Assembly (NCBI RefSeq): GCF_018860635.1
Contig: NZ_JAHKPT010000026.1
Coordinates: forward strand, 186,321-250,320
Length of the DNA stretch: 64,000 nucleotides
From: Aliiglaciecola lipolytica
Lineage (GTDB): Bacteria; Pseudomonadota; Gammaproteobacteria; Enterobacterales; Alteromonadaceae
Direction of reading: 5' to 3'
The notes under the pieces: generated by a model
Databases searched by the model: none
What the model was told of the DNA's origin: nothing
What the model saw: only the letters and a program-made list of their open reading frames with translations
Shown: positions 21,943 to 37,547 of the stretch, one piece after another
How the letters are laid out: every line of letters begins with the position of its first letter
Numbering within the stretch: the first letter of the stretch is position 1
Made by a program: the position numbers and the translations under genes

Positions 21943-22749
21943 TCAATATGGTTTATCCCCGCCTATTGTAACTCGATAGCCAGAACGCGTTTCAGGGAAG
22001 TAATCCCAAACCGCAAAATGTTGGGTACATCGATTATCCCATAACGCAATTGAGTGAGGCTGCCAGCTAAAACGCACTTGGAAATTGGGATCTTTTGCCA
22101 GTTCAAATAACATTTTAAGAATGCCATCGCTTTCGGTTTTCGATAGACCCACAATTCGAGTAGTGTAAGAAGCGTTGACAAAAATGCCTTTTCTTCCGGT
22201 CACCGGATGGGTTCTTACAATTGGATGGCGGCTACATGGATAGGCCGTACCATAATCACCATAGATACTGTGATAGACAGGATTTGCGTCATGTTCGGCT
22301 TCGAGTCCACTTAAATAGTCTTGCATGGCTGGAGATAACGAATCGTATGCTGCGTACATCGATGAGAACAGCGTATCGCCACCAATTGATGGCAGAGTAT
22401 GTAAATACAACATCGAGCCCATAGGAGGCTCTGGGTTGCAACTCAGGTCAGAGTGCCAATTATCGCCTGCCACATATTTGGACTCTTTATCTGCATGTAT
22501 CGCCACAATATCTTTGTACCCTTCAATGCTTGGTGCTCCTGGATGCACAATAAGATCACCAAAAACTTGCCCGACTTCTCGATGTTGGTCGTGACTCAAT
22601 GGTTGGTCACGAAAGAAGATAACTTGATGATCCATCAATGCTTGATTTAAATCCGCACGCTGTTGTTCAGATAATGGTTGAGTTAAATCCACATTTCCGA
22701 TAATCGCCCCAATATTTTTTGTCATTGGCGTGACAGTGATGCTGCTCAT
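21943..22749 (-). CDS. TauD/TfdA-family 2-oxoglutarate-dependent dioxygenase (1)
   Basis: This 268-residue Fe(II)/2-oxoglutarate dioxygenase has the iron-binding HxD at His99 and Asp101 (WHSDLS) and a distal His at about 244 (CTQHFAVWDY). The 2-oxoglutarate-binding Arg is at about 255 (ETRSGYRV). The N-terminal GNVDLTQPLS and the HQVIFFRDQ segment are typical of the taurine-dioxygenase branch. Such enzymes hydroxylate carbons next to sulfonate, ether or amine groups and so release the group; the substrate here is not known. It lies 31 bp after the FMN-reductase gene on the same strand, transcribed away from the Rieske gene. A second TauD-type enzyme closes the other end of the cluster, and the two are not near-identical. 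Confidence 0.9.
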   Translation of the reverse strand: MSSITVTPMTKNIGAIIGNVDLTQPLSEQQRADLNQALMDHQVIFFRDQPLSHDQHREVGQVFGDLIVHPGAPSIEGYKDIVAIHADKESKYVAGDNWHSDLSCNPEPPMGSMLYLHTLPSIGGDTLFSSMYAAYDSLSPAMQDYLSGLEAEHDANPVYHSIYGDYGTAYPCSRHPIVRTHPVTGRKGIFVNASYTTRIVGLSKTESDGILKMLFELAKDPNFQVRFSWQPHSIALWDNRCTQHFAVWDYFPETRSGYRVTIGGDKPY

Positions 22750-22780
22750 GTAATTACCTTTAAGTTGAATACGATTGTGC

Positions 22781-23389
22781 TTACATACCGTATTGATAGG
22801 TTTTGTAATCTGCCACTTGGCTATTTCTAACTGCGCTCAACGCCTTAGCATATTCGGTTAACAAATTAATAGAATGCTGTAATCGACTACGAATATAAAT
22901 GTCATCTTGGTTTTCAGGTGGATTTGTATCATTCATACAAAGCTTTACGTTGCGCACGATAATATGATCAGGTATCCAACAAATTCTATTATTTTTGTAA
23001 CTGCTAATGCGCAATTCTGCCACCGGTAAATATCCCCCGACGGAAGCAGATATTGCGACTATCAAACCGGGTTTATTGGCCATTTCTGCGGCGCTACTGA
23101 ATAAGAAAAAGTTTTTTAAACAACTAGGTACCATTCCATGCCAATCAGGAGTGAGAACAATAAATCCATCGCAACTTTGTAATTCTTTAGCAATGGGTTG
23201 CCAGGCTGTTTGTAAACTACCTTGTTTTTCATACCAAAAGCTATCATCGAAATTAGCCAGGGGCTGTTTACCTAAGTCTAATAAAAAAGTGTTCACATCT
23301 TGCGAGTTTAACGTTTGTTGAATATATAAACCCACTTTACTGGTTTGCGATTTAACCCGTTGGCTACCGCAGATAATACCTATTTTCAT
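22781..23389 (-). CDS. NAD(P)H-dependent FMN reductase (flavodoxin-like)
   Basis: This 202-residue flavodoxin-fold reductase of the NADPH-dependent FMN reductase family starts MKIGIICGSQR, the FMN phosphate loop. LTPDWHGMVPSCLKNFF at about residues 79-95 is the second FMN-contact segment of the family. The frame opens further upstream at 23443, but the ATG at 23389 places the beta-strand start correctly. Its neighbours include a RutA-like flavin monooxygenase, which needs reduced FMN supplied by a partner. In the rut operon that partner is RutF, a different fold. This protein is the natural candidate supplier, as inference. It is divergent from the Rieske gene across 355 bp. Confidence 0.85.
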   Translation of the reverse strand: MKIGIICGSQRVKSQTSKVGLYIQQTLNSQDVNTFLLDLGKQPLANFDDSFWYEKQGSLQTAWQPIAKELQSCDGFIVLTPDWHGMVPSCLKNFFLFSSAAEMANKPGLIVAISASVGGYLPVAELRISSYKNNRICWIPDHIIVRNVKLCMNDTNPPENQDDIYIRSRLQHSINLLTEYAKALSAVRNSQVADYKTYQYGM

Positions 23390-23744
23390 ATTTACGTCTT
23401 CATTAGCTATGTTTAAGTTAAATTTAAACAAGCCATGCCACAAGTTCTTGATTTTTTACGCCCGATAAATTGTGTTTGCCAAAAGAGTTGCGCTAATTTC
23501 GCATTGCATCAGTGCAGTTGCGCACAAGCCTGGTGCATTGGACCATCATCCCCCCGAAATAAAGCAAACCCAAAGACGTCTTTTTACAACTTGTTTGACG
23601 GATACGTCCAAGATACGCCGCTATGAAATTTTTATACTAGAGCCAGTTTGGGAAGTAATCAGTTTCTGTTTCAAAGAGACTGTATCGATATTCTCTTCAA
23701 CAAAAATACTAAACAAGTATAAAAATAGCATTGGGAAATAGCGC
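23390..23744. promoter_or_regulatory. Divergent intergenic control region of the catabolic cluster
   Basis: These 355 bp separate the two leftward genes from the rightward catabolic genes and hold no credible gene. Two copies of AGTTGCGC lie 30 bp apart in the same orientation (23486-23493 and 23516-23523), a spacing of about three helical turns as AraC-type activators often use. A GGATACGTCC near-palindrome follows at about 23600-23609. No confident -35/-10 pair was found, which would fit an activator-dependent promoter. Function is inference. Confidence 0.35.
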
Positions 23745-24947
23745 ATGATGAAAAAAGTATTCGACGAAGAGTTTTTTGCCAGTTTGGCCAGCTCCACATT
23801 AGAAGTTGAGCAAGCGGAAACGTTACCTCCAGAATGTTATTCTGATCAAGCATTTTTTGAATTCGAAAAAGAAGCTTTATTTAACCACGAGTGGCTGTGT
23901 GTTGGGCGTGAATCGTTGATTCCCAAAGTCGGTGATTTTTTCACTGTCACTCACGTCAACGAACCTTTGATTATATGTAGAGATAGAACCCAAGAAATTC
24001 ATGCTTTGTCGGCGGTGTGTCAACATAGAGCAATGTTAGTGGCTGAGGGCCACGGTAACGCACAGGCCTTCTTGTGTCCTTATCATCACTGGGGTTATCG
24101 TTTAGATGGCACTTTGTCAGGAGCTCCTGCAATGAATAAGACCTGTGACTTTAGTCGTGATGATATTGCATTGCCAAAACTAAAAGTTGAAGTCTGGTTA
24201 GGCTTTATTTTTGTTAATTTTGACCTAAATGCAGCGCCATTGGCATCAAGATTAACCGAAGTCACTAAATATCTAAAAAATTACGACTTGGAAAAAGCCG
24301 AAGGCCCCAGACCCATGACGCCAGAGAAATACAACTGGAACTGGAAAGTGATGATGGAAAACAATAATGACGGATATCATGCAACCAAACTTCACAAAGG
24401 TCCCCTGCACGACTTTATTCCTAGCGAAAAGTCAGTTTTTCCAGAAATGCCTGCAGGTGAAGCAGGTTATGTTAGATTAAATGGAACCAATCACCCTGAC
24501 GCAGCTTTTAATCCACTGCAAAAAGCGATATTACCAATTTTTCCTAATTTAACTGACGAAGACCGCCACCAAGCGGTGTTTGCCAACTTGCCGCCAACTC
24601 TATCTTTGGTGATGACTAGCGACATGATTATTTACTTAATCTTGCATGCAGAATCCGCTGACAGTCATAGTATGACCATTGGCTACTTGGTTGCTCCTGG
24701 AGCAATGAAAGATCCTTTGTTTGAAGACAAAATAGATTTTAATATGAAAGCTGCCATGGAAATTACAGAGCAGGACTTGCATGTCGATAGATTAGTACAA
24801 GTTGGCTTAACCTCTAGATTCGCTCCCAGAGGCCGCTATTCTTGGCAAGAAAAGGCACAACAACTATTAAATGAATGGTTAGTAGAGCGTTATCAATCTT
24901 GTTGGGACAAGTCTAAACAGATCATTCCGATTAAACAGAGTGCTTAA
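23745..24947 (+). CDS. Rieske non-heme iron oxygenase, alpha subunit
   Basis: This 400-residue aromatic-ring-hydroxylating or N/O-demethylating oxygenase carries the [2Fe-2S] Rieske ligands Cys92-x-His94 and Cys111-xx-His114 (CQHRAM and CPYHHW). Its mononuclear-iron site shows Asp209, His212 and His217 (NNDGYHATKLH), Asp209 being the usual electron-bridge residue. Length and order (Rieske domain, then catalytic domain) fit the alpha subunit. No ferredoxin, reductase or beta subunit gene is in the cluster, so electrons must come from elsewhere in the cell. Two in-frame ATGs occur at 23745 and 23748, with GGGAAA upstream. It is the first gene of the rightward block, upstream of a ring-cleavage dioxygenase. 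Confidence 0.92.
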   Translation: MMKKVFDEEFFASLASSTLEVEQAETLPPECYSDQAFFEFEKEALFNHEWLCVGRESLIPKVGDFFTVTHVNEPLIICRDRTQEIHALSAVCQHRAMLVAEGHGNAQAFLCPYHHWGYRLDGTLSGAPAMNKTCDFSRDDIALPKLKVEVWLGFIFVNFDLNAAPLASRLTEVTKYLKNYDLEKAEGPRPMTPEKYNWNWKVMMENNNDGYHATKLHKGPLHDFIPSEKSVFPEMPAGEAGYVRLNGTNHPDAAFNPLQKAILPIFPNLTDEDRHQAVFANLPPTLSLVMTSDMIIYLILHAESADSHSMTIGYLVAPGAMKDPLFEDKIDFNMKAAMEITEQDLHVDRLVQVGLTSRFAPRGRYSWQEKAQQLLNEWLVERYQSCWDKSKQIIPIKQSA

Positions 24948-25033
24948 TTAATATCGTAATTTCTACAGTACGCAAAAATAAATTTCGTCATATGCCATGC
25001 AAATGGTATATGACTTTTTGGTAGGTAAAATCC

Positions 25034-25834
25034 ATGCAAAATCAATCTGATAATCAATCAACGAACACCATGCCATCGATTTTTTTCGGTCATGGCAGTC
25101 CAGGTAACATTCTTGAAGACAATGAAGCAACAAGAATGTGGCAACGTCTAGGGCAAGAGTTCCCAGCCCCAAAAGGCATAATATGTATTTCAGCCCATTG
25201 GTACACTCAAGGTGTGGGCGTTACTTCGATGCTTAAACCTCGCACGATTCACGACTTTGGGGGCTTTCCACCAGCCATGTATGAAATGCAATATCCAGCC
25301 CCAGGATCACCGGAATTAGCTGAAAAGTTGGTCTCCATTTTATCTGAAGAAGGCGCGGCACTGGATGACAGTTGGGGATTTGACCACGGCGCTTGGTGCG
25401 TCTTAGCTAAAGTCTACCCCAAAGCCAATATTCCCGTAGTGCAACTCTCGATTAATCGTCAACAAACACCAGAGTTTCATTTTAGAATAGGTCAAAAGCT
25501 TGCGCAACTTCGCCAGCAAGGATACTTGATAATGGGAAGTGGCAATATAGTACACAACTTACCAGCCATGGATTGGGGTGGTCGCAATAGAACCTATGCT
25601 TGGGCGAAACGTTTTGGTGATGCGATGCGTACTGCGATTGTCGAGAATACCCCCGAAAAAGTAGTGCAGTACACTGCCCTTGGTGCAGATGCCAATGAGT
25701 CAGTTCCGAGTCCAGATCACTTTTTGCCGATACTTTATGTATTGGGCGCACGCTTGCCTGACGATAAATTGCGCTTTGAAACTGCTTACGTTGAATACGG
25801 CTCATTAGATATGACGACGGTAGTATTTAGCTAA
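25034..25834 (+). CDS. DODA/LigB-type extradiol ring-cleavage dioxygenase
   Basis: This 266-residue class III extradiol dioxygenase is similar in layout to YgiD (4,5-DOPA dioxygenase). Metal-site and catalytic candidates are His in FFGHGSPGN, His in ISAHWYT, the FDHGAWC His, and the GNIVHNL His. These enzymes use Fe(II) or Zn(II) to open catechol-type rings next to the diol. Being directly after a Rieske oxygenase (87 bp gap) suggests ring hydroxylation followed by ring opening, though this pairing is inference. The ATG at 25034 has a weak GGTAGG-like ribosome site. The ORF reads cleanly to 25834, and nothing is missing relative to the family length of about 260-270. Confidence 0.88.
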   Translation: MQNQSDNQSTNTMPSIFFGHGSPGNILEDNEATRMWQRLGQEFPAPKGIICISAHWYTQGVGVTSMLKPRTIHDFGGFPPAMYEMQYPAPGSPELAEKLVSILSEEGAALDDSWGFDHGAWCVLAKVYPKANIPVVQLSINRQQTPEFHFRIGQKLAQLRQQGYLIMGSGNIVHNLPAMDWGGRNRTYAWAKRFGDAMRTAIVENTPEKVVQYTALGADANESVPSPDHFLPILYVLGARLPDDKLRFETAYVEYGSLDMTTVVFS

Positions 25835-25951
25835 AAGGTTATTTCACACAACTAAGCTGGCGTAAACAGTCAAGTAATAAACCTCCTCAGCCCTTAATCT
25901 GGAAAAATACTATTTCCATTAAGACAAACTAAATAATTGAAAGGAGAGTTT

Positions 25952-27040
25952 ATGTCACTGTTGAAAACTGACGATTTGTCAGAACAGGATCGTTGTCAAG
26001 CAAGCGCTATGCACACCTTAAAAGCCACAGTGGAAAACTGTCATTGGGGTTACTTTTCTGCAACCGAAGCGCCAGCATTAAAGGTGAAAAGTGGTGATAT
26101 CATTCAGGCGGAAGCCATAACCCATCATGCTGGCGATGCGCCTGACTTGATGATGGATGATAGTCTCAAAGCCATATGGGACGGCATTCCAGAAGCAGAC
26201 AGAAACCCTGGTGTCCACCTAATGACAGGACCAATATTTGTCGAAGGTGCTCAACCTGGTGATATCCTAGAGGTTCGTTATTTGTCGATGCGTCCGCGCT
26301 TTTCTTATGGTTCAAACTTAGCAGCTAACTGGGGACACTTATATGATGAATTCGAACAAAAAGAACGAGTCACCATTTACCGTTTAGACATGGCGAGTAT
26401 GCAAGCTCATGGTCACTATGCTTATGACTTTAAGGGAAAATATTTAACGCCTGGAACGATAACTAAGTGTCCTGAATGTGAACGAGAAACGACTTTAAAT
26501 GGCGTCCGAGTGCCTGTTCGCCCTCACTTAGGCACTGCTGGAGTGGCACCGGATGTCAGTGGCAGAGTGAGCACTATTCCACCTGGTAAACATGGTGGTA
26601 ACATTGATAACTGGCGGATTGGTGCAGGTTCTACCATGTATTATCCGGTGCAGGTAGAAGGTGGATTATTTTCTATTGGCGACCCCCACGTATCACAAGG
26701 TGATGGTGAAATCAGTGGCACTGCAATTGAAGCCTCATTGGATGTCACCATGCAAATCATTGTGCGCAAAGACTTTGTATTCCCTTCCCCGCTGTTAGAA
26801 ACACCAAATTATTTTGTGGTACATGGCTTTGACGAAGATCTCAATGTCGCTATGAAAAATGCCTCAATCGATATGCTTGAATTGCTTTCAGAACATCGAG
26901 GTTTGAGCCGCGACGACGCCTACTCTTTGATGAGTGTTGCCAGTGATTTCGGGGTAACTCAAGTGGTAGATAGTGTACAGGGTGTTCACGTTAAAATACC
27001 ACGTAGTATCGTAGACACCGGTGAGCCTGATTCAGACTAA
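25952..27040 (+). CDS. Acetamidase/formamidase family protein (stand-alone)
   Basis: This 362-residue amidohydrolase of the FmdA/AmdA family hydrolyses short amides such as formamide or acetamide to the acid plus ammonia. Family signs are the THHAGDAPD segment, GVHLMTGPIFVEGA, RPHLGTAGVAP, PGKHGGNIDNW, and the SIGDPHVSQGDGEISGTAIE block. The C-terminal SVASDFGVTQVVD helix is also conserved. A TTG-initiated frame starts at 25937, but the ATG at 25952 follows the ribosome site AAGGAGAG by four bases and is preferred. Next comes a terminator, then a second protein whose C-terminal half is a homologue of this one. A pair of Cys (about 174 and 177, CPEC) in a loop may bind metal. Confidence 0.9.
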   Translation: MSLLKTDDLSEQDRCQASAMHTLKATVENCHWGYFSATEAPALKVKSGDIIQAEAITHHAGDAPDLMMDDSLKAIWDGIPEADRNPGVHLMTGPIFVEGAQPGDILEVRYLSMRPRFSYGSNLAANWGHLYDEFEQKERVTIYRLDMASMQAHGHYAYDFKGKYLTPGTITKCPECERETTLNGVRVPVRPHLGTAGVAPDVSGRVSTIPPGKHGGNIDNWRIGAGSTMYYPVQVEGGLFSIGDPHVSQGDGEISGTAIEASLDVTMQIIVRKDFVFPSPLLETPNYFVVHGFDEDLNVAMKNASIDMLELLSEHRGLSRDDAYSLMSVASDFGVTQVVDSVQGVHVKIPRSIVDTGEPDSD

Positions 27041-27062
27041 AGGCTGTTGAATCCTCACACTG

Positions 27063-27091
27063 AACGCATACTCTTTGAGCGTGCGTTTTTT
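27063..27091 (+). terminator. Rho-independent terminator after formamidase gene
   Basis: AACGCA and TGCGTT pair around an inner CTC/GAG stem with TTT loop, followed directly by a T-run. It would end the Rieske-dioxygenase-formamidase transcript before the AraC-fusion gene, which then needs its own promoter in 27092-27256. Confidence 0.75.
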
Positions 27092-27256
27092 ATAATCATT
27101 CTCATTTCATGCTTTGCTTCACAACTCCCCTGCTGTGGTATGTAACTTGCTTTGCTACCTAACCTTAAAGAAAAAGTTTTCCTAGTAACACCAATCCGTT
27201 ACGTAAAAATACAAATTGCTATCCGTGCAGTCACGAGAATTTGAAGAGAGAAAATT

Positions 27257-29626
27257 ATGCTTAGTCGAAGTTGGGAATATTCCACCGATGCCCATTCTAA
27301 AATTGAACGACTTCCTAGTTGGCAGGGGGCGTTAGAAAAACTCGGTTTATTTTGTGAATATAAGGGCAAGTTAGAGGATTTTTATGCTGTGATGCATAAT
27401 TTAACCACGCCTAACGGGATTGAATTCACTCGAATTAGTTCGGCATCGCAGAATATTATTGCTAAAAAAGAAAATACCAATAATGGTGTTTGGGTTGCTT
27501 TCCCCCTCGAAGGGCGAATGACAATTAGAGAGGGGAATCGGTCTTTTGAGGTTTTACCTGGTGATATTGTATTTGGCGCTATGGGTTCCAAAACCTCACT
27601 AACCTTACATTCTGATTTCAGACAATTATTCGTGACCGTACCAAATATCGCATTCAATGCACGTTTAATCGCTCCTCTTCCTTCACACATGCTGCATTTA
27701 CCGGGGCATTCAGGTCCTGCTCAAACATTAGCCGCGATGCTAGTTTCAGTGGCTAATAATTTGGAAAAAATGACTGAAGATCAGCTACGTCCACTAGAAA
27801 TGGCTATTCCTGAATTTCTAATCGCAGCGCTATTTCCAGAAGCAGATACCCGCTCTCTCGGCGGTTCGGCTGGAGTAAAAGCCGCTTTATTACATCGAAT
27901 TTGCCAAAGTATAGAAGTCCGACTATCCAATCCAGATTTGAACTTAAATGAAGTAGCCAGTGAACATAAAGTGTCTCCCCGATACTTGCAGAAATTATTT
28001 GAATCGGTAGATCAGAGCTTCAGCCGCTACATTCGAAATCGGCGTTTAGAGCGCTGTAAAGATGACTTCGATAGTCCAGTGCATGCGCAATTATCTATTT
28101 CTGAAATTTGTTTCCGCTGGGGATTTAACGATTCAGCTTATTTTAGTCGTTCTTTTCGTGATTACGTAAAAATGTCTCCCAGAGAATATCGTAAACGTTC
28201 TAAACAGAAGGCCGCGAAAGAGCATGAATTAAAGCAGAGCAGAGGCCGCCCCATAGGTGTGAGTACCACCGAAAACCGCGAAGACACCGGCAATAAGCCT
28301 CAAGTTGATGTGGCGGCAATGGCCAAACAGTCGCAAGCGCTTAAATTAGCCCAAGACAAAGCATCTTCGGTTCATCATTACATTCCAGTCAATAAAGATA
28401 CTATTCACTGGGGCTTTTTCGACCGTGAACTGACTCCAGTGCTGTATATGAATTCCCATGAAAAGGTAACAATAGAGACCCTCACCCACCACGCCTACGA
28501 CGACTATGAACGGATGATAAAAGATGATCCCGGTGCCGAGAGTGTTTTTAAATGGACATCTAAACAGAAAAATGTTGATCGCAGAGGTGCAGGTCCCATG
28601 GATGCCTCCATTTACGGTCGAGGCGCGGGGGAAGGATTTGGAGTCCACGTTTGTACTGGCCCCATATACATAAATGAAGCCATGCCTGGGGATGTAATCG
28701 AGCTACGAATATTAGATATTCATACTCGACACAATCACAGTGACCAGTTCAAAGGCCGCAGTTTTGGCTCTAACGCCGCTACTTTCTGGGGATTTCATTA
28801 CAATGATTTGCTCACTGAACCTAAGCCTAGAGAAGTGGTTACTATCTACGAAATTGACGAATCAGACAAACCCAGCTGTGCGCACGCTGTGTATAATTAT
28901 CGTTGGATACCGCAAACAGATCCATTTGGGGTTACCCATGAGCGCATAGATTATCCAGGTGTACCAGTTGACCATAGTAAGACCCAAAAAAACTTCGACA
29001 TTTTACAAAATGTAGAAATACCTCTTAGGCCACATTTTGGTACTATTGGGTTAGCACCTAATCATGCTGACTTGGTCGATTCTGTTCCACCATCTAATCA
29101 AGGTGGCAATTTAGACAATTGGCGTTTAGGCAAAGGCTCCAGAGTATTTTTACCTGTGGCCGTTAAGGGAGGTATACTGTCAGTGGGTGATCCTCATGCG
29201 AGTCAAGGAGACTCTGAGCTATGCGGAACGGCGATAGAGTGCTCATTAACGGGAGAATTCCAAGTTATTTTGCACAAACAAGCCGACTTACCCGGACAAT
29301 ATTTTGATATGGACTTCCCGTTAATCGAAACTGACGATGAATGGGTTGTTTTAGGGTTCAGTCACCCTAATTATTTAAAAGAACTGGGCAGCAATGCCCA
29401 AAGTGAAATTTATAACCAATCAACAATTGACTTGGCTATGCGAGACGCGTTTAGAAAAGCGCGTCGATTTTTAATGAATTCGCAAAACCTAAGTGAAGAT
29501 GAAGCTATTTCGTTATTGTCTGTTGCTGTGGACTTTGGCGTGACTCAGGTGGTTGATGGTAATTGGGGAGTGCATGCAGCTATCCCGAAAGGAATATTCA
29601 CGAATTTGGCTGAAAACACAGATTAG
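27257..29626 (+). CDS. AraC-family regulator fused to acetamidase/formamidase domain
   Basis: One uninterrupted frame of 789 residues joins two normally separate proteins. Residues 1 to about 200 look like an AraC-type ligand-binding/cupin-like domain (VAFPLEGRMTIREG, then FEVLPGDIVF). Residues about 213-318 are a typical AraC/XylS double helix-turn-helix, with LNEVASEHKVSPRYLQKLFE, then ISEICFRWGFNDSAYFSRSF and SPREYRK. A charged linker follows to about 370. Residues about 371-789 are a formamidase domain with THHAYDD, GVHVCTGPIYI, RPHFGTIGLAP, NQGGNLDNW, SVGDPHASQGDSE and VAVDFGVTQVVD. The enzyme half is homologous to the preceding stand-alone formamidase but has insertions. Likely role: ligand- or product-responsive control of this cluster, with the enzyme half either catalytic or acting as a sensor. 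That split is inference. Confidence 0.9.
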   Translation: MLSRSWEYSTDAHSKIERLPSWQGALEKLGLFCEYKGKLEDFYAVMHNLTTPNGIEFTRISSASQNIIAKKENTNNGVWVAFPLEGRMTIREGNRSFEVLPGDIVFGAMGSKTSLTLHSDFRQLFVTVPNIAFNARLIAPLPSHMLHLPGHSGPAQTLAAMLVSVANNLEKMTEDQLRPLEMAIPEFLIAALFPEADTRSLGGSAGVKAALLHRICQSIEVRLSNPDLNLNEVASEHKVSPRYLQKLFESVDQSFSRYIRNRRLERCKDDFDSPVHAQLSISEICFRWGFNDSAYFSRSFRDYVKMSPREYRKRSKQKAAKEHELKQSRGRPIGVSTTENREDTGNKPQVDVAAMAKQSQALKLAQDKASSVHHYIPVNKDTIHWGFFDRELTPVLYMNSHEKVTIETLTHHAYDDYERMIKDDPGAESVFKWTSKQKNVDRRGAGPMDASIYGRGAGEGFGVHVCTGPIYINEAMPGDVIELRILDIHTRHNHSDQFKGRSFGSNAATFWGFHYNDLLTEPKPREVVTIYEIDESDKPSCAHAVYNYRWIPQTDPFGVTHERIDYPGVPVDHSKTQKNFDILQNVEIPLRPHFGTIGLAPNHADLVDSVPPSNQGGNLDNWRLGKGSRVFLPVAVKGGILSVGDPHASQGDSELCGTAIECSLTGEFQVILHKQADLPGQYFDMDFPLIETDDEWVVLGFSHPNYLKELGSNAQSEIYNQSTIDLAMRDAFRKARRFLMNSQNLSEDEAISLLSVAVDFGVTQVVDGNWGVHAAIPKGIFTNLAENTD

Positions 29627-29777: not shown

Positions 29778-32237
29778 ATGTTCAAATTGAATAAGCTCTT
29801 TAAATCAGTTTCGTTAGCTGTAGTTGCGATGCATGGCGCTAGCACTGAGTTAATGGCACAAGAGTTAACAACACAAAATGAAGAAAATTTAGACTCTATC
29901 GAGGTGGTATCAGTAGTCGCAAAAAGAGATATTGCGGGCTTTCTTGAGAATCAACCCAGCGGCTTATTGTTCGGCTTCGAGAAGTCATTACTCGAAACGC
30001 CTCGTTCGGCAACATTCGTCAGTGATGAAACATTGAAGGCATTTGGGGTAACTACTGTAGATGATCTTACTGCTGTAGCTCCAGGTACATTTACCGCTTC
30101 TTTCTACGGTGTAGAGGGTGCTTTAAATGTGAGGGGAACATTGGCAGAGACCTATTTCCATGGCTTTAAACGCATTGAAAACCGCGGTACTTATCAAACT
30201 CCAATCGGCTCAACATCCAGAGTTGATATTCTTCGAGGTCCTCCTACGGCTAATTTTGGTCCAGGTAAAATTGGTGGCTTGCTTAACCTTGAACCGAAAA
30301 CAGCCAGATTAAGTCAAAGTGGAGGCTACTTGCCAGAAACGGTTGGTGAAGTACAACTGACCCTAGGTTCATACGACAAAAAGAATTTAAGCTTCCAATT
30401 TGGTGTACCTGTTAATGTGGGTGACGCAGAAGGCGGCATTTATACCTATGTTGAAATAGAAGATTCAGGTAGTTATTACGACGGTATTGAGCCAGAGCAT
30501 CAAATGCTGCAAGTAACTGCAGACTTTGAGTTAAGCAATAACTGGACATTAGTTGCTGGCCTAATGGCATATAATGCCGAAGGCTACGTGCAAACTCCTG
30601 GATGGAATCGTGTAACCCAAGAATTAATTGATAATGGGACTTATATTACCGGCCGTGATACGGATTTAGTGGATACCAATGGTAATGGTCAAATGGAATG
30701 GGCGGAACTATCTGCACAAGATCCTACCTACTTTGCCAAATTGACGTCTTATCCAGACTTTTATTTATATGCTGATGCGAACGTCGCAGCTTTAGATAGC
30801 AATGTAGGCACCACACAATTATCTCGTCACAATGTGTATACAAGTGACAGCGACTTTTCTGATACATCAACCTTTACTGGATTTGTCGATCTTATCAAGA
30901 CCTATGACGATGACAGCCAACTAAAACTGCAACTATTTGCTGATTACTTAGATAATCAACGTTTTGTTAGTTATGGGTTCCCCGCAGATTATTTAGCCAA
31001 AACAGCGGAGCTTCGTGTTTCATATATCAGTGCCTTTGGCAGCAGTAGTGACGCAATTCAAGGTTCCTATAACGTAGGTGTAAGCAGCCGTTATTATGAT
31101 GCGCGTAGAAAAGAATCCTATAATGGTGGTCAAATTGCCATCAACCGCAGAGATATTTCTGTAGGTGCGATGCCAAACGACATTATTGGCTCTCCATTTA
31201 ACTCTGATTTTTTCTGGGACTTAGATACCCAATCAAAATGGAGCTATAACTCTGCGTTTGCGATGGTCGACTTAACCGCAATGGATATTTGGAATTTGTC
31301 ATTAAGTGGTCGCTACGATTACTACGACGTCGAGTCTACTGAGAATGGCGATCCTACCTATTCTTACGCGACAGAAACCTACGCTGAAGATACAGACGGT
31401 GAGTTTACCTTCAGTGCGATGTTGTTATTAGACCTAGAGTCGGGTATTCGACCTTATATAAGCTACGCAGAATCTTCAGCCATCGAGTTTAGTCAAGCAG
31501 GTGACGTATCACCGGACTTGATTGCGAATGGCGAGTGGTTATCTGACGGCGAATTGCTCGAAGGCGGTGTTAAACTCGAATTATTCGAAGGCATTGTCAC
31601 CGGCTCTATCTCTGGCTATCGACAAGAAAGAACCGAGTTGAGCACTGTCGGGGGAAGCACCGTTAGCCGCACTCGAAGTGAAGGTACTGAATTGGAACTG
31701 CGTATTCTAGCCAGTGAAAATTTAAGTTTTAGCATTACCAGTAACAAACAAAAAACCGAATACATTGACGGCTTTGCCGGTTATTACATTGTTAATCCGC
31801 GAGATATTGGCTTGAACGATATCGATAACTATGGCATCTCGGTGGCAGCATTGAGCTTTGCTAGCAGCATGTATGCAGCAACGGGTAGCGACTACTACTT
31901 AGGAGAGTTAGAAGATACGCGCATACCGGATGCAGTCACTAGTATCTATGCGACTTATGCCAGTGAAGCAGGAGTTTTTGACAGTATTGGTTCAACTTGG
32001 GGGGTACGATACGTATCAGAATCCTCCGGCTTGGTAGAAAATTCTGTTAAGTATCCAAGCTATTTGACTGTGCAGGGTTCGTTCTTCGCTCACTATGGTG
32101 ATTGGTCGTTGATGTTGAATATAGACAATGTATTTGACGAAACCTACTTTACATCACTACAGGATTTATACGGAGACGTGGCCGTATTACCTGGTAAGGG
32201 ACGTGAATGGCGAGCAACAGTCAATTACGCTTTTTAA
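29778..32237 (+). CDS. TonB-dependent outer-membrane receptor (cluster-associated)
   Basis: This 819-residue TonB-dependent receptor has a signal peptide (about residues 10-27), a TonB-box-like SIEVVSVVAKRD near the N-terminus, a plug domain and a 22-strand-type barrel. The plug shows LETPRSATFVSDE, NVRGT and RVDILRGPPTANFG. The protein ends in Phe (RATVNYAF) as such barrels do. The plug is closest in feel to siderophore-type receptors, but the catabolic neighbourhood argues for import of the substrate degraded here. The MFS transporter follows 63 bp later and could complete uptake across the inner membrane. The 151 bp upstream separate it from the AraC-fusion gene and may hold its regulated promoter. 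Confidence 0.92.
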   Translation: MFKLNKLFKSVSLAVVAMHGASTELMAQELTTQNEENLDSIEVVSVVAKRDIAGFLENQPSGLLFGFEKSLLETPRSATFVSDETLKAFGVTTVDDLTAVAPGTFTASFYGVEGALNVRGTLAETYFHGFKRIENRGTYQTPIGSTSRVDILRGPPTANFGPGKIGGLLNLEPKTARLSQSGGYLPETVGEVQLTLGSYDKKNLSFQFGVPVNVGDAEGGIYTYVEIEDSGSYYDGIEPEHQMLQVTADFELSNNWTLVAGLMAYNAEGYVQTPGWNRVTQELIDNGTYITGRDTDLVDTNGNGQMEWAELSAQDPTYFAKLTSYPDFYLYADANVAALDSNVGTTQLSRHNVYTSDSDFSDTSTFTGFVDLIKTYDDDSQLKLQLFADYLDNQRFVSYGFPADYLAKTAELRVSYISAFGSSSDAIQGSYNVGVSSRYYDARRKESYNGGQIAINRRDISVGAMPNDIIGSPFNSDFFWDLDTQSKWSYNSAFAMVDLTAMDIWNLSLSGRYDYYDVESTENGDPTYSYATETYAEDTDGEFTFSAMLLLDLESGIRPYISYAESSAIEFSQAGDVSPDLIANGEWLSDGELLEGGVKLELFEGIVTGSISGYRQERTELSTVGGSTVSRTRSEGTELELRILASENLSFSITSNKQKTEYIDGFAGYYIVNPRDIGLNDIDNYGISVAALSFASSMYAATGSDYYLGELEDTRIPDAVTSIYATYASEAGVFDSIGSTWGVRYVSESSGLVENSVKYPSYLTVQGSFFAHYGDWSLMLNIDNVFDETYFTSLQDLYGDVAVLPGKGREWRATVNYAF

Positions 32238-32249
32238 ATAGAAATATCT

Positions 32250-32287
32250 GTGTGCAGCTGAAAAATTGTTGTATTCACACTGCACAC
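32250..32287 (+). other. Intercistronic hairpin between receptor and MFS genes
   Basis: GTGTGCAG (32250-32257) and CTGCACAC (32280-32287) form a perfect 8-bp stem with a 22-base loop, ending just before the MFS ribosome site GAGGA. Only three Ts follow, so full termination is doubtful. It could protect the receptor mRNA or lower expression of the downstream genes. Confidence 0.4.
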
Positions 32288-32300
32288 TTTGAGGATCATT

Positions 32301-33602
32301 ATGGGTAAGTTAAGCGCTGACAAACAAGCATGGTTTGTTTTATGCACCTTCAGTTTAAGCTTTTTTGTCGTCACCGCCGCAACCTTTACTTCACTGGGCG
32401 TTATTCTACCAGCAATGGTCACTGAGTTAGGTTGGGATTGGACCACAGCAGGCCTAGGATTTACTTTTCTGGGCGTGGCTTGCGGGCTAAGTGGGTACTT
32501 ACCTACAGTGACAATTAGAAGATGGGGTGTTGCCACTACGCTGATTATTGGTCTATTGCTATTGGCGGTTGGTTTTGTTGTTTTGTTTTTAACAACGGAA
32601 CCTATAACTTACTTTTTAGGATGCATTCTCACTGGCACTGGATATACCTTTGTAGGTTCAGTACCAGGTACTTATATCATCACTCACTTTTTCAAAAGAC
32701 GTTCAACGGCCTTCGGTTTTTATTATACCGTAGGCGGTCTAGGTGGCGTGGTTGGACCCATTGTTGTTTGGATGGCAACCAATGTGCTAGGAAACTGGCG
32801 GCTGCATTGGCTGGTTATGCTGGCAGCAATTGTAATCTCAGTAGGGCTAATGCTGCTATCGCTGTTATTCACGGACGCCAATCGATTAAGAACACCTCCT
32901 AAACAAGAAAAAGTGGATACCGAAAAACAACGGGTTTACGAAACCGAACAAACTTGGACATTTAAACAAGCGGTTCGCACCCCTCAATACATTTTACTAC
33001 TCGTAGCGTATTCCACAGTGTTATTTGTGGGAATTACAGTCAACAGCTTCTCGGTAGCACATATGACTGAAGTGGGAATCACTTTCGCTTTAGCCAGTAC
33101 TTTGTTGTCCGCAGAAGCTTTCTGTAATGCTATTTCCCGTGTCGTTGGCGGCTTTATCGGTGAGTTTTTTGATCCAAAAGTAATGCTTCAAGTTGCACTA
33201 CTTCTATTGGCCGGCGGAATGTTTGCCTTAAGTTTTGGTCAAACATTAGTGACCTTAGGTTTCTTCGCCTTTGCCATAGGTTTTGGATTTGGTCTTACCT
33301 TCCTATCCTGCACAGTTTTACTTGTAAGATACTTTGGAACCGGACCTTATTTACCTCTATTTTCATTAATGAACATTGGTGCAACTATCGCATCTGCAGC
33401 ACCAATAATTAGTGGTCGTATGCGCGATGTATCAGGTACCTTTGTACCGCCTTTCGTAATGATTGGTATATTGCCCATGCTGGTTTTAGTTGGCATTGCA
33501 TTCATGCGTCCGCCAAGACTAAATCAGAAAAAAGTAACCGAAACGCCCCCATCTGACCCATCAATTAATAATATGCTTGCCGCTAAAGTAGCCAGCAAAT
33601 AG
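32301..33602 (+). CDS. MFS transporter
   Basis: This 433-residue major facilitator superfamily transporter has about 12 hydrophobic segments in two halves joined by a charged loop (about residues 195-225). The first half has an ITHFFKRRSTAFGFYYTVGG loop resembling motif A-like regions of monocarboxylate and oxalate/formate-type carriers. The start is set by a GAGGA ribosome site before the ATG at 32301; a TTG at 32289 in frame lacks one. It lies between the TonB receptor and the RutA-like gene, with only 22 bp to the latter, so it likely moves the cluster substrate or an intermediate across the inner membrane. The substrate is not known. Confidence 0.88.
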   Translation: MGKLSADKQAWFVLCTFSLSFFVVTAATFTSLGVILPAMVTELGWDWTTAGLGFTFLGVACGLSGYLPTVTIRRWGVATTLIIGLLLLAVGFVVLFLTTEPITYFLGCILTGTGYTFVGSVPGTYIITHFFKRRSTAFGFYYTVGGLGGVVGPIVVWMATNVLGNWRLHWLVMLAAIVISVGLMLLSLLFTDANRLRTPPKQEKVDTEKQRVYETEQTWTFKQAVRTPQYILLLVAYSTVLFVGITVNSFSVAHMTEVGITFALASTLLSAEAFCNAISRVVGGFIGEFFDPKVMLQVALLLLAGGMFALSFGQTLVTLGFFAFAIGFGFGLTFLSCTVLLVRYFGTGPYLPLFSLMNIGATIASAAPIISGRMRDVSGTFVPPFVMIGILPMLVLVGIAFMRPPRLNQKKVTETPPSDPSINNMLAAKVASK

Positions 33603-33624
33603 TTGTTATTCAGGAGTTTATAAT

Positions 33625-34680
33625 ATGACGACCAACACTAAAGAATTTGGCGTGTTTTTACCGATCGCAAATGGCGGTTGGATTGTTTCAGAAAACACCC
33701 CCACACTCGATGCTTCATATCAGCAAAATAAAACTGCCGCAGTGATTGCTGACAGTTACAAAATGGATTTCATTATGTCGATGGCAAAGTGGCGTGGTTA
33801 TGGCGGTAAAACTGAGCATTGGGGAACGTCATTAGAATCAATCACCATGATGGCTGGGTTAGCGGAAGCGACTAATCACGCCAAAATTATTGCCACTGTG
33901 CATACTTTAATGATGAATCCTGGAGCGGTAGCCAAAATGATGAGCACCCTCGACCAGATTTCCGGTGGCCGTGCCGGTTTAAATATTGTTTCAGGTTCTT
34001 TCAGAGATGAGCTTAACCAAATGGGCGCGTGGCGTGATGATATCGACCATGACGAACGTTATGTTTATGCCCAAGAGTGGAGTGACTTAGTTCATAAACT
34101 CTGGCAAGAAGATCATGTGGATTACGATGGTAAATACTTCAAGTTTGAAGATTGTGTGTCACAGCCTAAACCCCAAAACAAACCATTCACGGTTTGTGCA
34201 GGCCAATCAGAACGCGGTTTGCGCTTTTCAGTAAAAAATACTGATGCATGTTTCGTGGGCGGAAAGGACGATGAAGAAACCTTAAAAATTACTCGTATGG
34301 CACGCAAGATTGCCGATGAGCTTGATACGCCAGTGAAATGTTTTTGTATGGCAACGCTTATCATTGAGGACACTGAAGAAGAAGCTCAAGCCAAAGCTGA
34401 CTATTATCGCGAGGGTAAAGATCTAGGCGCAATTGAAGGCATGATGCGTTCTTACGGAATTGACCCAGCTTTAAAAGATAACGCCATGGTAATTCGTGCT
34501 CAAGGTGCATTTATGAGTCGCGAGATCGTAGGCACTGTAGAGTCAGTGAAAAAGCAGCTTATCGAAATGATTGATAACACTGAAATGGACGGTGTCATGG
34601 TGATTTTTGATGATTACGAAAAAGGGCTGCACAAATTTGGCAAAGATATTTTACCCGCGGTAAGAGCCCATTATGGCTGA
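33625..34680 (+). CDS. RutA-like flavin-dependent monooxygenase (LLM class)
   Basis: This 351-residue luciferase-like flavin monooxygenase is clearly related to RutA, the pyrimidine monooxygenase that opens uracil using a flavin-N5-peroxide. Matching segments are FGVFLPIANGGWI, the MAKWRGYGGKTEHWGTSLES block (RutA has KLRGFGGKTEFWDHNLES), DQISGGRAGLNIVSG and FTVCAGQSERG. It is not assigned as RutA itself: no rutC, rutD, rutE, rutF or rutG genes are here, and the neighbours differ. Such enzymes cleave amide C-N bonds in heterocycles. Reduced FMN would have to come from a separate reductase, for which 22781-23389 is a candidate. The start overlaps nothing upstream; its 3' end overlaps the RutB-like gene by eight bases. 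Confidence 0.9.
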   Translation: MTTNTKEFGVFLPIANGGWIVSENTPTLDASYQQNKTAAVIADSYKMDFIMSMAKWRGYGGKTEHWGTSLESITMMAGLAEATNHAKIIATVHTLMMNPGAVAKMMSTLDQISGGRAGLNIVSGSFRDELNQMGAWRDDIDHDERYVYAQEWSDLVHKLWQEDHVDYDGKYFKFEDCVSQPKPQNKPFTVCAGQSERGLRFSVKNTDACFVGGKDDEETLKITRMARKIADELDTPVKCFCMATLIIEDTEEEAQAKADYYREGKDLGAIEGMMRSYGIDPALKDNAMVIRAQGAFMSREIVGTVESVKKQLIEMIDNTEMDGVMVIFDDYEKGLHKFGKDILPAVRAHYG

Positions 34681-35320
34681 TTCTGATTTAACAGAGCTTC
34701 AGCCTGATTGGATAGCACCTGCTCGAACCGCGTTGTGCATCGTCGATGTGCAAAACGACTTCGCCAGTCCAGACGGCCTTTTAGGCCAGTTTGGACTGGA
34801 CATGAGTGTGCTGCAACCCGCTATTGAAAATATCAAAAAGCTAGTTGCCAGTGCTCGTTCAAAGGGTATCGCGGTTATCTTTGTTGGCTTAAAAACCACT
34901 GAACAAGATGACTCTCCTGCTTGGCAAGAATGGATGACCAGACAAGGCAGAGATGCTAAAGCAGAAAGCGCAATCTGCCGTGCAGATACCTCAGGTATGG
35001 ATTTTTATGGTATTCAGCCTCAAGACGGTGATGTGGTAATTTATAAAACACGTTATAGCGCTTTTTTTAATACCCAACTGGATGAGGTGTTAACACAAAA
35101 GCAGTTAGATACGTTGGTGTTTTGTGGCGTTACTACTGAATGTTGTGTTGAGTCTAGCGTTCGAGATGCTTTTCACCATGATTACCATGCCATTGTTGTG
35201 ACTGATGGTTGCGGCGCATACGAACCAGAGTTGCACGACGCTAGCCTGCGAGCGATGGCGATAAACTTCGCTTTACTAAGCGATACCCAATCTATTCTTA
35301 AACGTTGGGAGGCAGCATGA
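34673..35320 (+). CDS. RutB-like isochorismatase-family amidohydrolase
   Basis: This 215-residue cysteine hydrolase of the isochorismatase superfamily is similar to RutB, which hydrolyses the ureidoacrylate product of RutA. The catalytic triad is visible: Asp25 in CIVDVQNDF, Lys125 in VVIYKTRYSAF, and the Cys in GVTTECCVESS (Cys158). It overlaps the RutA-like gene by eight bases and the M20 gene by four, so all three are translationally coupled. RutA/RutB adjacency as in the rut operon suggests the first breaks an amide bond by oxygenation and this one hydrolyses the resulting acyl-N product. The true substrate is inference. Confidence 0.88.
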   Translation: MADSDLTELQPDWIAPARTALCIVDVQNDFASPDGLLGQFGLDMSVLQPAIENIKKLVASARSKGIAVIFVGLKTTEQDDSPAWQEWMTRQGRDAKAESAICRADTSGMDFYGIQPQDGDVVIYKTRYSAFFNTQLDEVLTQKQLDTLVFCGVTTECCVESSVRDAFHHDYHAIVVTDGCGAYEPELHDASLRAMAINFALLSDTQSILKRWEAA

Positions 35321-36642
35321 CCAGCCCATTGTACCCATCTGATACACAAGTAAATTACTCTGTTACAGATGAAGATGTTGCAGCAATTAAAGCCGCCATC
35401 GACATCCAAGAAATAACTGAACTGGCGCTAACCCTTGGTAATATTCCTAGCCAATCTGGCTATGAAGCAGAATCGGGTAAATTTGTGTTTGACTGGTTAC
35501 AAACAAATGGTTTCAAAGCCCGTCAATGTGGCGCGACACCAGAGCGCCAAAACATCATCGGTGAATATGGCGGTAAAGGTGTTGGTAAAAATTTGTTGTT
35601 TACCGCCCATCTTGATACCGAAAGCCCCAGCGATGACCCGCATATAAATCAACATAAATTTTCACAAAAAACCTTAGATAATCCCGAATGGAACAAGTGT
35701 TGGTTGGAAGATGGTAAATTTCACGGCTTTCCTATTAGTAATGATCGCGGCCCTATGAGTTGTTTTTTAATTGCCGCTAAAGCATTAAAACAAGCCGGTT
35801 TCGAATTAGCGGGTAAGTTATATTTAACGGCTTGCCCGGGAGAAATTGGTCCTGAGCCAATGGAACACTGGCAGGGCGTGGACTATATGGGCAAAGATAT
35901 AGGTGCACACTACCTATTTCATCATGGAGGCGTAATAGCAGATTATGCCATCGCTGCAGAAGGTTGTGACTGGGGCGTTACATGGCAAGGAAATGGTTAT
36001 GCGTTGTATCGTATTCAGTTGTTCGGCGAGGGGGTATTTACACCAATATTGGAAGCTCCTGTAGAAACGAACAAACATCCAAATCCGATATACAAATTAG
36101 GCGCTGTGATTGATGCCTTACATGGCTGGTCACAACAATATGAAGCTGAAAATAAATATGTGACTACAGGTGGAGTGTCTGTCCCTAAAGTACAAATTGA
36201 TTCTATTAAAGCCGGTTCGCCATTGACCTTTGGTGCCGGTACAGATGTTTGCTCAGTGTATATCGAAGTGGGCCTTACCGCTCAACAAACAGCGGCGCAA
36301 CCATACCACCAGCTAAAGCAACTAATGGCATCTTTAGATGTTGATGATTACGACATAGAACCAATGGTTGTTAGAAATGGTTTCGAGGCAGATGCGCAAG
36401 CCGTAGCGCCATTAGTCAAGTCGCTGTGCGACGCCACTAAGGCAACCAAAAATGAACCAATTGAACTTGCCCATCCCGCTTATTCAAGCATGTGGCGTGA
36501 CCACAATGTATTTAATATGCAGCGGATTCCGGCCGTAACTTCCGGTATGCCCAGATGGCGCGCCACTCCACAAGATTTAGTAGACAGTGCATTAATTTAT
36601 GCATTAACTGCTTTGTCGGTGTGTGGCAAACGTGAATCTTAA
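35317..36642 (+). CDS. M20-family metallo-hydrolase
   Basis: This 441-residue member of the M20 family (dipeptidase, N-carbamoyl- and N-acyl-amino-acid hydrolases) normally uses two Zn ions. Metal-ligand candidates are His and Asp in LLFTAHLDTE, Asp in SNDRGPMS, the acidic CPGEIGPEPMEHW segment, Glu in AAEGCDWG and a C-terminal His in IELAHPAYSS. The dimerisation domain lies in the middle. The start is the ATG at 35317, sharing ATGA with the RutB-like stop and preceded by GGGAGG; a TTG at 35305 is in the same frame. In this cluster it probably cleaves an amide or ureido intermediate. I cannot tell whether it hydrolyses a peptide-like or carbamoyl bond. Confidence 0.87.
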   Translation: MTSPLYPSDTQVNYSVTDEDVAAIKAAIDIQEITELALTLGNIPSQSGYEAESGKFVFDWLQTNGFKARQCGATPERQNIIGEYGGKGVGKNLLFTAHLDTESPSDDPHINQHKFSQKTLDNPEWNKCWLEDGKFHGFPISNDRGPMSCFLIAAKALKQAGFELAGKLYLTACPGEIGPEPMEHWQGVDYMGKDIGAHYLFHHGGVIADYAIAAEGCDWGVTWQGNGYALYRIQLFGEGVFTPILEAPVETNKHPNPIYKLGAVIDALHGWSQQYEAENKYVTTGGVSVPKVQIDSIKAGSPLTFGAGTDVCSVYIEVGLTAQQTAAQPYHQLKQLMASLDVDDYDIEPMVVRNGFEADAQAVAPLVKSLCDATKATKNEPIELAHPAYSSMWRDHNVFNMQRIPAVTSGMPRWRATPQDLVDSALIYALTALSVCGKRES

Positions 36643-36659
36643 AATGAGTGAGCCAAATT

Positions 36660-37547
36660 ATGAATAAGTCATTAGCTAAAACGTCAAAAGAATTAACCAT
36701 AGAGCATTTAAAGGGCGACTTTGGTGCGCAAATAGTCGATGTAGACTTACCATCAGCAGACCAAGAAACCTTGACCAAAGTAGTCGCGGCGTTTCATCAA
36801 CATGGCGCAATTTTATTACGCAATCAAACAATGGAGCCCGATGACCTAATGCGTTTTATTAACGCTTTTGGTGAGCCGGAGCTGCATACTCAAACCAAAT
36901 TTTGTTTACCTAACTATCCGCATATTTTTAAAATTTCTAATATGCTTGACAAAAATGGTGAACCCATTGGCGCACATAACGACGGTTTAGGCTGGCACAC
37001 TGATTATTCTTACAAAGAAGAACCGGTAATGTGCACTATGCTCTACGCGGTTACCGTTCCTGATGAAGGGGGCGACACCCTGTTAGCTGACCAAGTGGCT
37101 GCCTATGAAGATTTACCAGAAGAGCAAAAAGCACGATTAGATCCGTTAAAAATTCATCATTCATTGGTGCATTTTATTCAAAATCGTGAATTCAATAGCT
37201 ATGAAATTACCGATGAATTGCGTCGCGAAAACCCTGATGTCATTCATCCAATGATCCGCGTCCACCCCGCCGATGGCCGTAAGGCATTGTGGGTTAGTAC
37301 AGGTACGGTAAAGCATATTCTAGGCATGGAAGATGACGAAGCCATGGCTTTGGTCGATGAGCTAGTTGAATACATTACCCAACCTAAGTATGTGTATGCC
37401 CACAAGTGGCAGAAAGGCGACGTGTTAATGTGGGACAACCGTTGCACATTGCATACAGGCACCGTTTACGATGATAAAAAATATCAACGTATGGCACATC
37501 GATTATGGGTCAAAGGTGAAAAACCGATTTCAGTAGGTGACCTGTAG
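36660..37547 (+). CDS. TauD/TfdA-family 2-oxoglutarate-dependent dioxygenase (2)
   Basis: This 295-residue Fe(II)/2-oxoglutarate dioxygenase has iron ligands His113 and Asp115 (GWHTDYS), a distal His at about 265 (CTLHTGTVYDD) and an Arg at about 277-281 for 2-oxoglutarate. The start is the ATG at 36660, with GAGTGAG as ribosome site. A GTG at 36648 is in frame but less likely. The gene ends the rightward catabolic block, 17 bp after the M20 stop. Its stop codon lies inside the first unit of a 70-bp tandem repeat. With the other TauD-type gene at the far end, the cluster holds two oxygenases of this class, likely for different steps. Substrates are unknown. Confidence 0.9.
   Translation: MNKSLAKTSKELTIEHLKGDFGAQIVDVDLPSADQETLTKVVAAFHQHGAILLRNQTMEPDDLMRFINAFGEPELHTQTKFCLPNYPHIFKISNMLDKNGEPIGAHNDGLGWHTDYSYKEEPVMCTMLYAVTVPDEGGDTLLADQVAAYEDLPEEQKARLDPLKIHHSLVHFIQNREFNSYEITDELRRENPDVIHPMIRVHPADGRKALWVSTGTVKHILGMEDDEAMALVDELVEYITQPKYVYAHKWQKGDVLMWDNRCTLHTGTVYDDKKYQRMAHRLWVKGEKPISVGDL

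Follow-up and report, generated by a model that had tools for sequence, protein, structure and literature searches.

A two-module gene island in Aliiglaciecola lipolytica that may degrade an N-heteroaromatic compound with a uracil-type ring

What compound would call for a RutA-like monooxygenase, a RutB-like hydrolase, a Rieske oxygenase and an extradiol dioxygenase encoded side by side? This question is raised by a gene cluster in a 64,000-nucleotide stretch of Aliiglaciecola lipolytica (contig NZ_JAHKPT010000026.1, positions 186,321 to 250,320; hereafter the window). A sequence-only reading of positions 21943-37547 had listed eleven genes; Pfam and NCBIfam scans recovered every enzyme class that it named, while the span was found to hold 12 genes, with a thirteenth, encoding a VOC protein, lying beyond it. 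We counted this gene into the set because its family is present in 36 loci of our gene-family clustering, several of them from one and the same genome. With 13 genes at 21943-38378, the cluster is genuine and a little larger than first described. Below, the RutA-like protein is termed LLM, the RutB-like isochorismatase-like hydrolase IHL and the NaaA-like protein M20, and loci and genomes carry L- and G-numbers, respectively.

The genes form two modules: module A consists of an MFS transporter, LLM, IHL, M20, a flavin reductase and the oxygenase TauD1, and module B of a Rieske oxygenase, a DODA-type dioxygenase, the amidase FmdA, TauD2, VOC, AraC-type regulators (AraC and AraC-FmdA) and an SDR seen in relatives. 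Our best explanation, held with about even confidence for all of its parts jointly, is that the two linked modules are a horizontally acquired catabolic island that degrades an N-heteroaromatic compound containing a pyrimidine-2,4-dione-type (uracil-type) ring. Module A would open this ring within the larger molecule: the RutA-like flavin enzyme would oxidatively cleave a ring amide to leave a carboxylate, the RutB-like hydrolase would take off the ureido or carbamoyl group, and the M20 enzyme would replace the remaining ring amine or amidine by oxygen. Module B would next hydroxylate the arene to a catechol for extradiol cleavage and, through its amidase, hydrolyse the small amide released, while the 2-oxoglutarate oxygenases would strip side chains or a carboxylate; ribose freed in this way might pass to a ribokinase in some relatives. 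We infer these reactions, their order and the substrate from gene content, conservation, the modules, homology to RutA, RutB and NaaA, and the catalytic or metal residues, which are intact in all proteins checked (Rieske, DODA, both TauDs, IHL, M20 and LLM).

The nearest fold to LLM is that of RutA, and LLM scored 276.8 bits against the RutA equivalog TIGR03612, under the curated cut-off of 498.3; its closest named relative is a protein of Aliiglaciecola sp. 3_MG-2023 (98% identical). The flavin-N5/dioxygen residues of RutA (T105, N134, V136 and F224) are kept in 89/89 aligned LLM rows. At the L65 position Met was found in 88/89 rows, the substrate-side W139 is replaced by Ser or Ala in every row, and the Glu292 position, Arg in the window, is variable (R 30, H 23, E 15, A 10 and K 4, together 82/89 rows). 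IHL did not reach the cut-off of the RutB equivalog TIGR03614 (128.7 bits; cut-off 377.95), and its nearest PDB relative is RutB, followed among named relatives by biuret-type hydrolases. It keeps the Asp-Lys-Cys catalytic triad of isochorismatase-like hydrolases (D25 and K125 in 33/33 rows; C158 in 32/33). The M20 protein had been taken for an amide hydrolase. We found that it falls just below the Pfam M20 cut-off (23.1 bits; cut-off 24.6) and that its PDB relatives at E ≤ 0.001 are solely two 5-nitroanthranilate aminohydrolase (NaaA) sequences, matched over the full length (best E 2.9e-72). Residues N146 and E180-I181 (49/49 rows) equal the unusual site residues of NaaA, whose Asn and Glu-Ile stand in place of canonical M20 metal residues. 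Judged by homology, the M20 protein is a relative of an aromatic aminohydrolase, not of an amidase.

These relationships bear on a second reading, which we regard as unlikely, in which the substrate is of the pyridine or pyridone type (a betaine, hydroxypyridone or picolinate) with no fused pyrimidinedione. Here, C-N opening by the RutA-like enzyme would yield an N-formyl enamine, IHL and M20 would hydrolyse amides, FmdA would use formamide and DODA would cleave a dihydroxypyridine. LLM-type enzymes act on pyridine and trigonelline by opening the ring, which sets formamide-type fragments free, the 3-hydroxy-4-pyridone of mimosine undergoes extradiol cleavage, and glycine betaine monooxygenase is the NCBIfam model that the Rieske protein matches best (128.6 bits; cut-off 670). 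However, with M20 nearest to an aromatic aminohydrolase and IHL nearest to RutB and then to biuret-type hydrolases, removal of a ureido group and an amine fits better. Domain and family profile scans of the window's cluster also detected neither an aldehyde dehydrogenase, which argues against a pyridine-type route, nor an esterase.

As to the other enzymes of the cluster, the FMN reductase, whose start is likelier the ATG 17 codons into the listed open reading frame (ORF), probably supplies FMNH2 to the RutA-like enzyme. TauD1 (285.4 bits) and TauD2 (186.6 bits) both scored below the taurine dioxygenase model NF007104 (cut-off 313) and keep the HxD..H motif (35/35 and 31/31 rows, respectively). 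The Rieske protein retains CxH, CxxH and D209/H212/H217 in 41/41 rows, and no Rieske beta subunit or ferredoxin is present among the 13 genes. DODA exceeds the cut-off of 233 of the DODA/YgiD model NF007914 (318.2 bits), with H20, H55 and H174 kept in 25/25 rows. FmdA1 is at least 66% identical in most related clusters; neither it (74.8 bits) nor the second FmdA domain (65.4 bits) approached the 500-bit cut-off of formamidase model NF045496, and the formamide release proposed earlier would rest on a family name. The VOC proteins of Alteromonadaceae are 58-61% identical to that of Kozakia, and a PDB search with the VOC protein returned a single weak match.

The TonB-dependent receptor has a siderophore-receptor subfamily as its best model (TIGR01783; 100.3 bits, under the cut-off of 223.5), and catechols are cleaved by DODA-type enzymes, both of which would suit an island that handles a catechol-type siderophore or chelator entering via the receptor. 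We consider this highly improbable: an OmpK-like porin (named after a Paraburkholderia record), sometimes an ABC importer, replaces the receptor in several lineages with module A only, although Pseudoduganella L027 carries a gene that falls in the TonB family cluster and is of receptor size, and the window's cluster has no esterase.

We then examined how widely the set is conserved. Among 295 genomes of the family, 13 had an LLM match at E ≤ 1e-70, six of them (including the window) at 77-100% identity and seven at 37-39%. All six genomes with a close LLM carry most of the cluster; in Alteromonas lipolytica (G243/L024) tblastn left DODA, TauD2, the receptor and the fused FmdA unmatched, and in G149 the last two. 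Scanning 84,980 species genomes, we took the best 80 of 272 relatives together with four plasmid loci as 84 LLM loci, to which fixed bit-score thresholds were applied; truncation at a contig end did not exclude a locus, so the module-B counts are lower bounds. At least 28/84 loci have three or more of five module-B genes (TauD2, Rieske, DODA, FmdA1 and VOC), and modules A and B thereby co-locate in five lineages: Alteromonadaceae (5/5), Parvibaculum (7/7), Caulobacteraceae (14/24), Novosphingobium (1/1) and Kozakia (1/1). This recurrence contradicts the notion that the genes are never conserved together, and such conservation across lineages rules out their chance assembly. Variovorax carries TauD1, TauD2 and Rieske.

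Co-occurrence of the modules was also seen in broader samples, independently of LLM. In 398 genomes sampled across the phylum, M20 (E ≤ 1e-30) occurred in two and FmdA1 (E ≤ 1e-110) in the same two, our own genome among them. A sample of 199 genomes from the family of the other genome (f44), taken as Caulobacteraceae as its loci L130 and L134 group with named Caulobacter in the LLM tree, had M20 in 38, FmdA1 (E ≤ 1e-80) in 51 and both in 37 (Fisher p 1.9e-27, uncorrected for kinship). The two genes lie within 12 kb of each other in 25 of these 37 genomes, 18-44 kb apart on one contig in 6 and on different contigs in 6.

Yet the modules also occur apart, as would be expected if module A were a nitrogen-scavenging Rut variant acting on substituted uracils or small rings, and module B an unrelated aromatic pathway next to it; we give this reading a minor chance. 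Module A was found without B in Acinetobacter, Paraburkholderia, Pseudoduganella, Thalassolituus and Paenibacillus, the first four sharing the gene order MFS-LLM-IHL-M20-flavin reductase. Conversely, M20 was not found in 14/51 FmdA1-bearing f44 genomes, and in the 8 of these 14 that we inspected no LLM or M20 adjoins FmdA1; five f44 loci (L117, L118, L120, L121 and L122) matched Rieske, FmdA1, DODA, VOC, SDR and AraC, with LLM, IHL and M20 unmatched. M20 and FmdA1 stand 36-44 kb apart in five f44 genomes, and in L123/L124 and L125/L126 (44 and 36 kb) the set is split on the contig into TonB-MFS-LLM-IHL-M20-flavin reductase-TauD1 and VOC-SDR-TauD2-Rieske-DODA-FmdA1-AraC. Against two unrelated pathways stand the presence of FmdA1 in 37/38 M20-bearing f44 genomes, mostly close by, and the five lineages with A and B side by side. 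An N-heterocycle attacked by RutA-type N-C cleavage and then by aromatic ring cleavage, as first suggested, remains the most economical reading; since the modules are able to travel separately, one linear pathway for one substrate is unproven. On the whole, the earlier interpretation is partly supported.

Two formamidase domains had been reported, and both are present, but the second forms the C-terminal half of the AraC-type regulator. The fusion is a single ORF in Aliiglaciecola and also at L022, L023, L019, L121, L127 and L129; it has 807 aa in Paraglaciecola, 768 in Novosphingobium and 784, 777 and 797 in three f44 genomes, these five copies being 53-85% identical to that of the window. 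Its occurrence as one ORF in several genera indicates that it is not an assembly accident. The FmdA motif GDPH..QGD.E is kept in 11/11 Fmd2-type rows scored (window included; some rows share one genome and some end at a locus edge), so the amidase half may be either an active enzyme or a ligand sensor. An AF2 model of the fusion was poor (six sequences; mean pLDDT 54.6) and was left unused.

Which ring compound might the island degrade? At eight loci (L019, L076, L117, L118, L120, L121, L122 and L132) the cluster contains or adjoins a PfkB kinase gene, and ribokinase was the best model for all seven scanned, one above the cut-off (313.8 versus 299.65 bits) and six below it (216-293 bits). In Photorhabdus and Xenorhabdus, an OmpK-like porin, MFS and LLM stand together, with IHL, M20 and module B unmatched. 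A second riboflavin synthase family gene lies within 10 kb upstream of LLM in 10/10 testable Photorhabdus loci; in the 11 testable Xenorhabdus loci it is nearly whole in 4, partial or in pieces in 3 and absent in 4 (2/12 Photorhabdus and 2/13 Xenorhabdus loci had too little flank and were left out). The enterobacterial metagenome-assembled genome L054 also has this gene upstream of LLM. The LLM-adjacent copy is additional to a higher-scoring one elsewhere in 4/5 genomes checked, and Erwinia psidii has one copy. Together, the ribokinase genes of relatives and the second riboflavin synthase near the Photorhabdus version make a flavin the leading, though unproven, candidate substrate, with riboflavin-derived isoalloxazine or lumichrome as the best single candidate; fused pyrimidinediones in general are the safer statement. 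A Gram-negative riboflavin/lumichrome pathway with Stadtman-type genes, in which a RutA-type enzyme would oxidatively open the flavin's own pyrimidine ring under control of the AraC-amidase fusion, is a possibility that we hold only tentatively.

Other neighbours of related loci include an NMT1/THI5-type and SBP_bac_5 binding proteins, an allophanate hydrolase (near L132) and a deaminase-type amidohydrolase (in L121), which would suit N-heterocycles and point to no single compound. The TetR regulator behind the Paenibacillus set (L070) is weakly RutR-like (89.3 bits; cut-off 368). Near the clusters of L117, L118, L119, L120, L122 and L077, genes of a GH3 glycosidase family are found repeatedly, as are those of a carboxylesterase family near L117, L118, L120 and L122 (GH3 was profile-scanned in L117 and L120, the esterase in L117); these genes, some beside loci with module B only, match no candidate substrate clearly.

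Several observations weigh against a single uracil-type or flavin pathway. Since each module is also found without the other, the two may act on different substrates, and FmdA1 may not be a formamide hydrolase; indeed, every enzyme activity in the scheme is a prediction. The flavin reductases scanned (L016 and L080) are nearer to HsaB/FerA types than to RutF. Among the 13 genes there is no P450, TPP decarboxylase or xanthine-oxidase-type enzyme of the kind used in the lumichrome pathway. The window's cluster has no ribokinase, and none was found at most loci with both modules. The riboflavin synthase link is limited to a single clade of LLM proteins (Photorhabdus, Xenorhabdus and L054), fails in 4/11 testable Xenorhabdus loci, was found in no other lineage, and could reflect extra FMN supply or shared synteny. 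Finally, no riboswitch of any Rfam family was detected in the window, and 13 related loci gave only 6S, tRNA and 5S.

Table 1. Coordinates of the cluster genes and associated features (window positions, except where a locus is given).
Feature	Position	Strand	Evidence and context
TauD1, 2-oxoglutarate/Fe oxygenase	21943..22749	-	Pfam TauD 2.8e-70; with module A in L124 and L126
FMN reductase	22781..23443	-	Pfam FMN_red 9.5e-23; family at 12 loci
Rieske oxygenase alpha subunit	23745..24947	+	Pfam Rieske + Ring_hydroxyl_A; module B
DODA/LigB-type extradiol dioxygenase	25034..25834	+	NF007914 (DODA/YgiD) 318.2 bits; module B
FmdA1, acetamidase/formamidase family amidase	25937..27040	+	Pfam FmdA_AmdA 2.7e-36; module B
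AraC (FeaR-like) regulator fused to second FmdA domain, 789 aa	27257..29626	+	Pfam AraC_binding_2, HTH_18 and FmdA_AmdA in one ORF
TonB-dependent receptor	29778..32237	+	Pfam Plug 1.2e-11; TIGR01783 100.3 bits, cut-off 223.5
MFS transporter	32289..33602	+	Pfam MFS_1 1.2e-26; homologue at 74/84 LLM loci
RutA-like LLM flavin monooxygenase	33625..34680	+	TIGR03612 276.8 bits; module A
RutB-like isochorismatase-type cysteine hydrolase (IHL)	34673..35320	+	TIGR03614 128.7 bits; PDB RutB 7.4e-27
M20-fold aminohydrolase, NaaA-like	35305..36642	+	NaaA match E 2.9e-72; module A
TauD2, 2-oxoglutarate/Fe oxygenase	36648..37547	+	Pfam TauD 9e-66; module B
Tandem repeat	37540..37885	.	TRF: 4.9 copies of 70-bp unit, two palindromes each, between convergent TauD2 and VOC
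VOC (glyoxalase-type) protein	37887..38378	-	Pfam Glyoxalase 1.1e-8; module B
Second riboflavin-synthase gene	L037:6252-6881		Upstream of OmpK-MFS-RutA-like set; equivalents in Photorhabdus/Xenorhabdus loci

How did the island come to lie here? It sits between two housekeeping genes and interrupts a radC-rpmB-rpmG block, with mutM and two short genes, whose translations suggest rpmB and rpmG, on its left and radC, coaBC and slmA on its right. Probing 11 other family genomes with radC, we saw rpmB/rpmG-type genes within the 1.5 kb flank of radC in 7/11 and not in the other 4. Six same-genus genomes are without the cluster, and in all five of these that were checked the block is contiguous (gap ≤ 1.1 kb), one of the five having a radC 94% identical; G212 has an intact block and carries its cluster on another contig. 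From this we infer an insertion of the island between rpmB and radC in the lineage to which the window belongs. In a quick LLM tree of 66 rows, the Alteromonadaceae proteins are sister to those of Parvibaculum, an alphaproteobacterium (SH-aLRT 89). The GC content (about 43%) is near that of the flanks and no tRNA was found in the window, so acquisition is argued from the interruption of the gene block and from the tree.

Further loci are of note. LLM, IHL and M20 stand beside sphingolipid-type genes in L134, which we read as another landing place and not as a clue to function; L134, L085, L090 and L099 represent a further LLM-IHL(-M20) locus type of Caulobacter-type genomes with neighbours in common, and the assemblies of L090 and L099 hold another LLM locus as well (L089 and L084, respectively). 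A Parvibaculum cluster is followed by TonB and ExbB-type genes of its own (L031:13714-15265). M20 was found in only three plasmid records, all already found via LLM. Distant RutA-like genes (40-41% identity) on Rhizobium daejeonense and Paracoccaceae plasmids (L020/L021) neighbour genes annotated as TenA, as an amidohydrolase or deformylase, and as RidA/RutC-type; these loci may encode a distinct RutA-type pathway that acts on thiamin pyrimidine. In the window, the 70-bp tandem unit has no second match in its own genome, and the array is possibly a multiplied terminator.

Searches of the open-licence literature (gene combination, flavin catabolism, NaaA, RutA, RutB, pterin catabolism and homarine) yielded no description of this cluster, nor did a search for the AraC-formamidase fusion; the homarine operon, considered as an explanation, had no match there. 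Nicotinate, phenylacetate and kynurenine pathways as such were set aside, with no equivalog above its cut-off among the proteins scanned. The island thus appears to be a pathway without earlier study for a ring-shaped nitrogen compound, perhaps vitamin B2, that is broadly distributed and horizontally moving. Such a pathway would carry the flavin-N5 chemistry of RutA-type enzymes beyond uracil to larger heteroaromatics and give NaaA-type aminohydrolases a place in ordinary carbon and nitrogen metabolism, and the AraC-formamidase fusion offers a testable regulator-enzyme architecture. If the substrate is a flavin, the island would provide the genes of a route for riboflavin breakdown that was reported in 1958 with no enzymes assigned to it, and simple tests could then address how Proteobacteria of marine, freshwater and soil habitats turn over vitamin B2.

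In that route, Stadtman's in Pseudomonas RF, the pyrimidine ring is lost before the ribose, a quinoxalinedione is later converted to a dimethyl carboxypyrone, and urea and oxalamide are products; its enzymes and genes are not known and the strain was not kept (PMC12746152). Compared by described chemistry only, its steps fit the enzyme classes of our cluster. The lumichrome (lum) pathway of Nocardioides simplex proceeds from ring opening by LumH through ureido removal by LumI and replacement of the amine by oxygen by LumM to Rieske and extradiol steps (PMC12746152). This is the same logical order that we propose, from ring opening to extradiol cleavage, the likeness being one of reaction description and enzyme class, and the Rieske oxygenase and extradiol dioxygenase present in both are likewise matched by class only. 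In contrast, the lum pathway uses hydrolytic ring opening (LumH), a P450, a TPP decarboxylase, a xanthine-oxidase-type enzyme and an alpha-beta Rieske oxygenase (PMC12746152), all of which are absent from our cluster. As had been noted, the combination is unlike the standard rut set, and we find it equally unlike the lumichrome set. The Rut pathway of E. coli uracil catabolism (RutA, RutB, RutF and RutG) likewise groups a RutA-type LLM, a RutB-type hydrolase, a flavin reductase and a transporter, and RutA's oxygen-pocket residues are kept in our cluster. Here, however, Trp139 is lost, the RutA- and RutB-like proteins lie under the Rut cut-offs, the window's cluster has no RutC or RutD, and relatives have flavin reductases other than RutF (73-100 bits; cut-off 254.75). 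At the place of the aminoacrylate step stands the NaaA-like M20 protein, and the set is coupled to Rieske and extradiol enzymes. NaaA itself (5k8m, 5k8n, 5k8o and 5k8p), a full-length homologue of M20 with the same Asn and Glu-Ile, is an ortho-aminobenzoate aminohydrolase, whereas its counterpart here is embedded in a RutA/RutB-like module.

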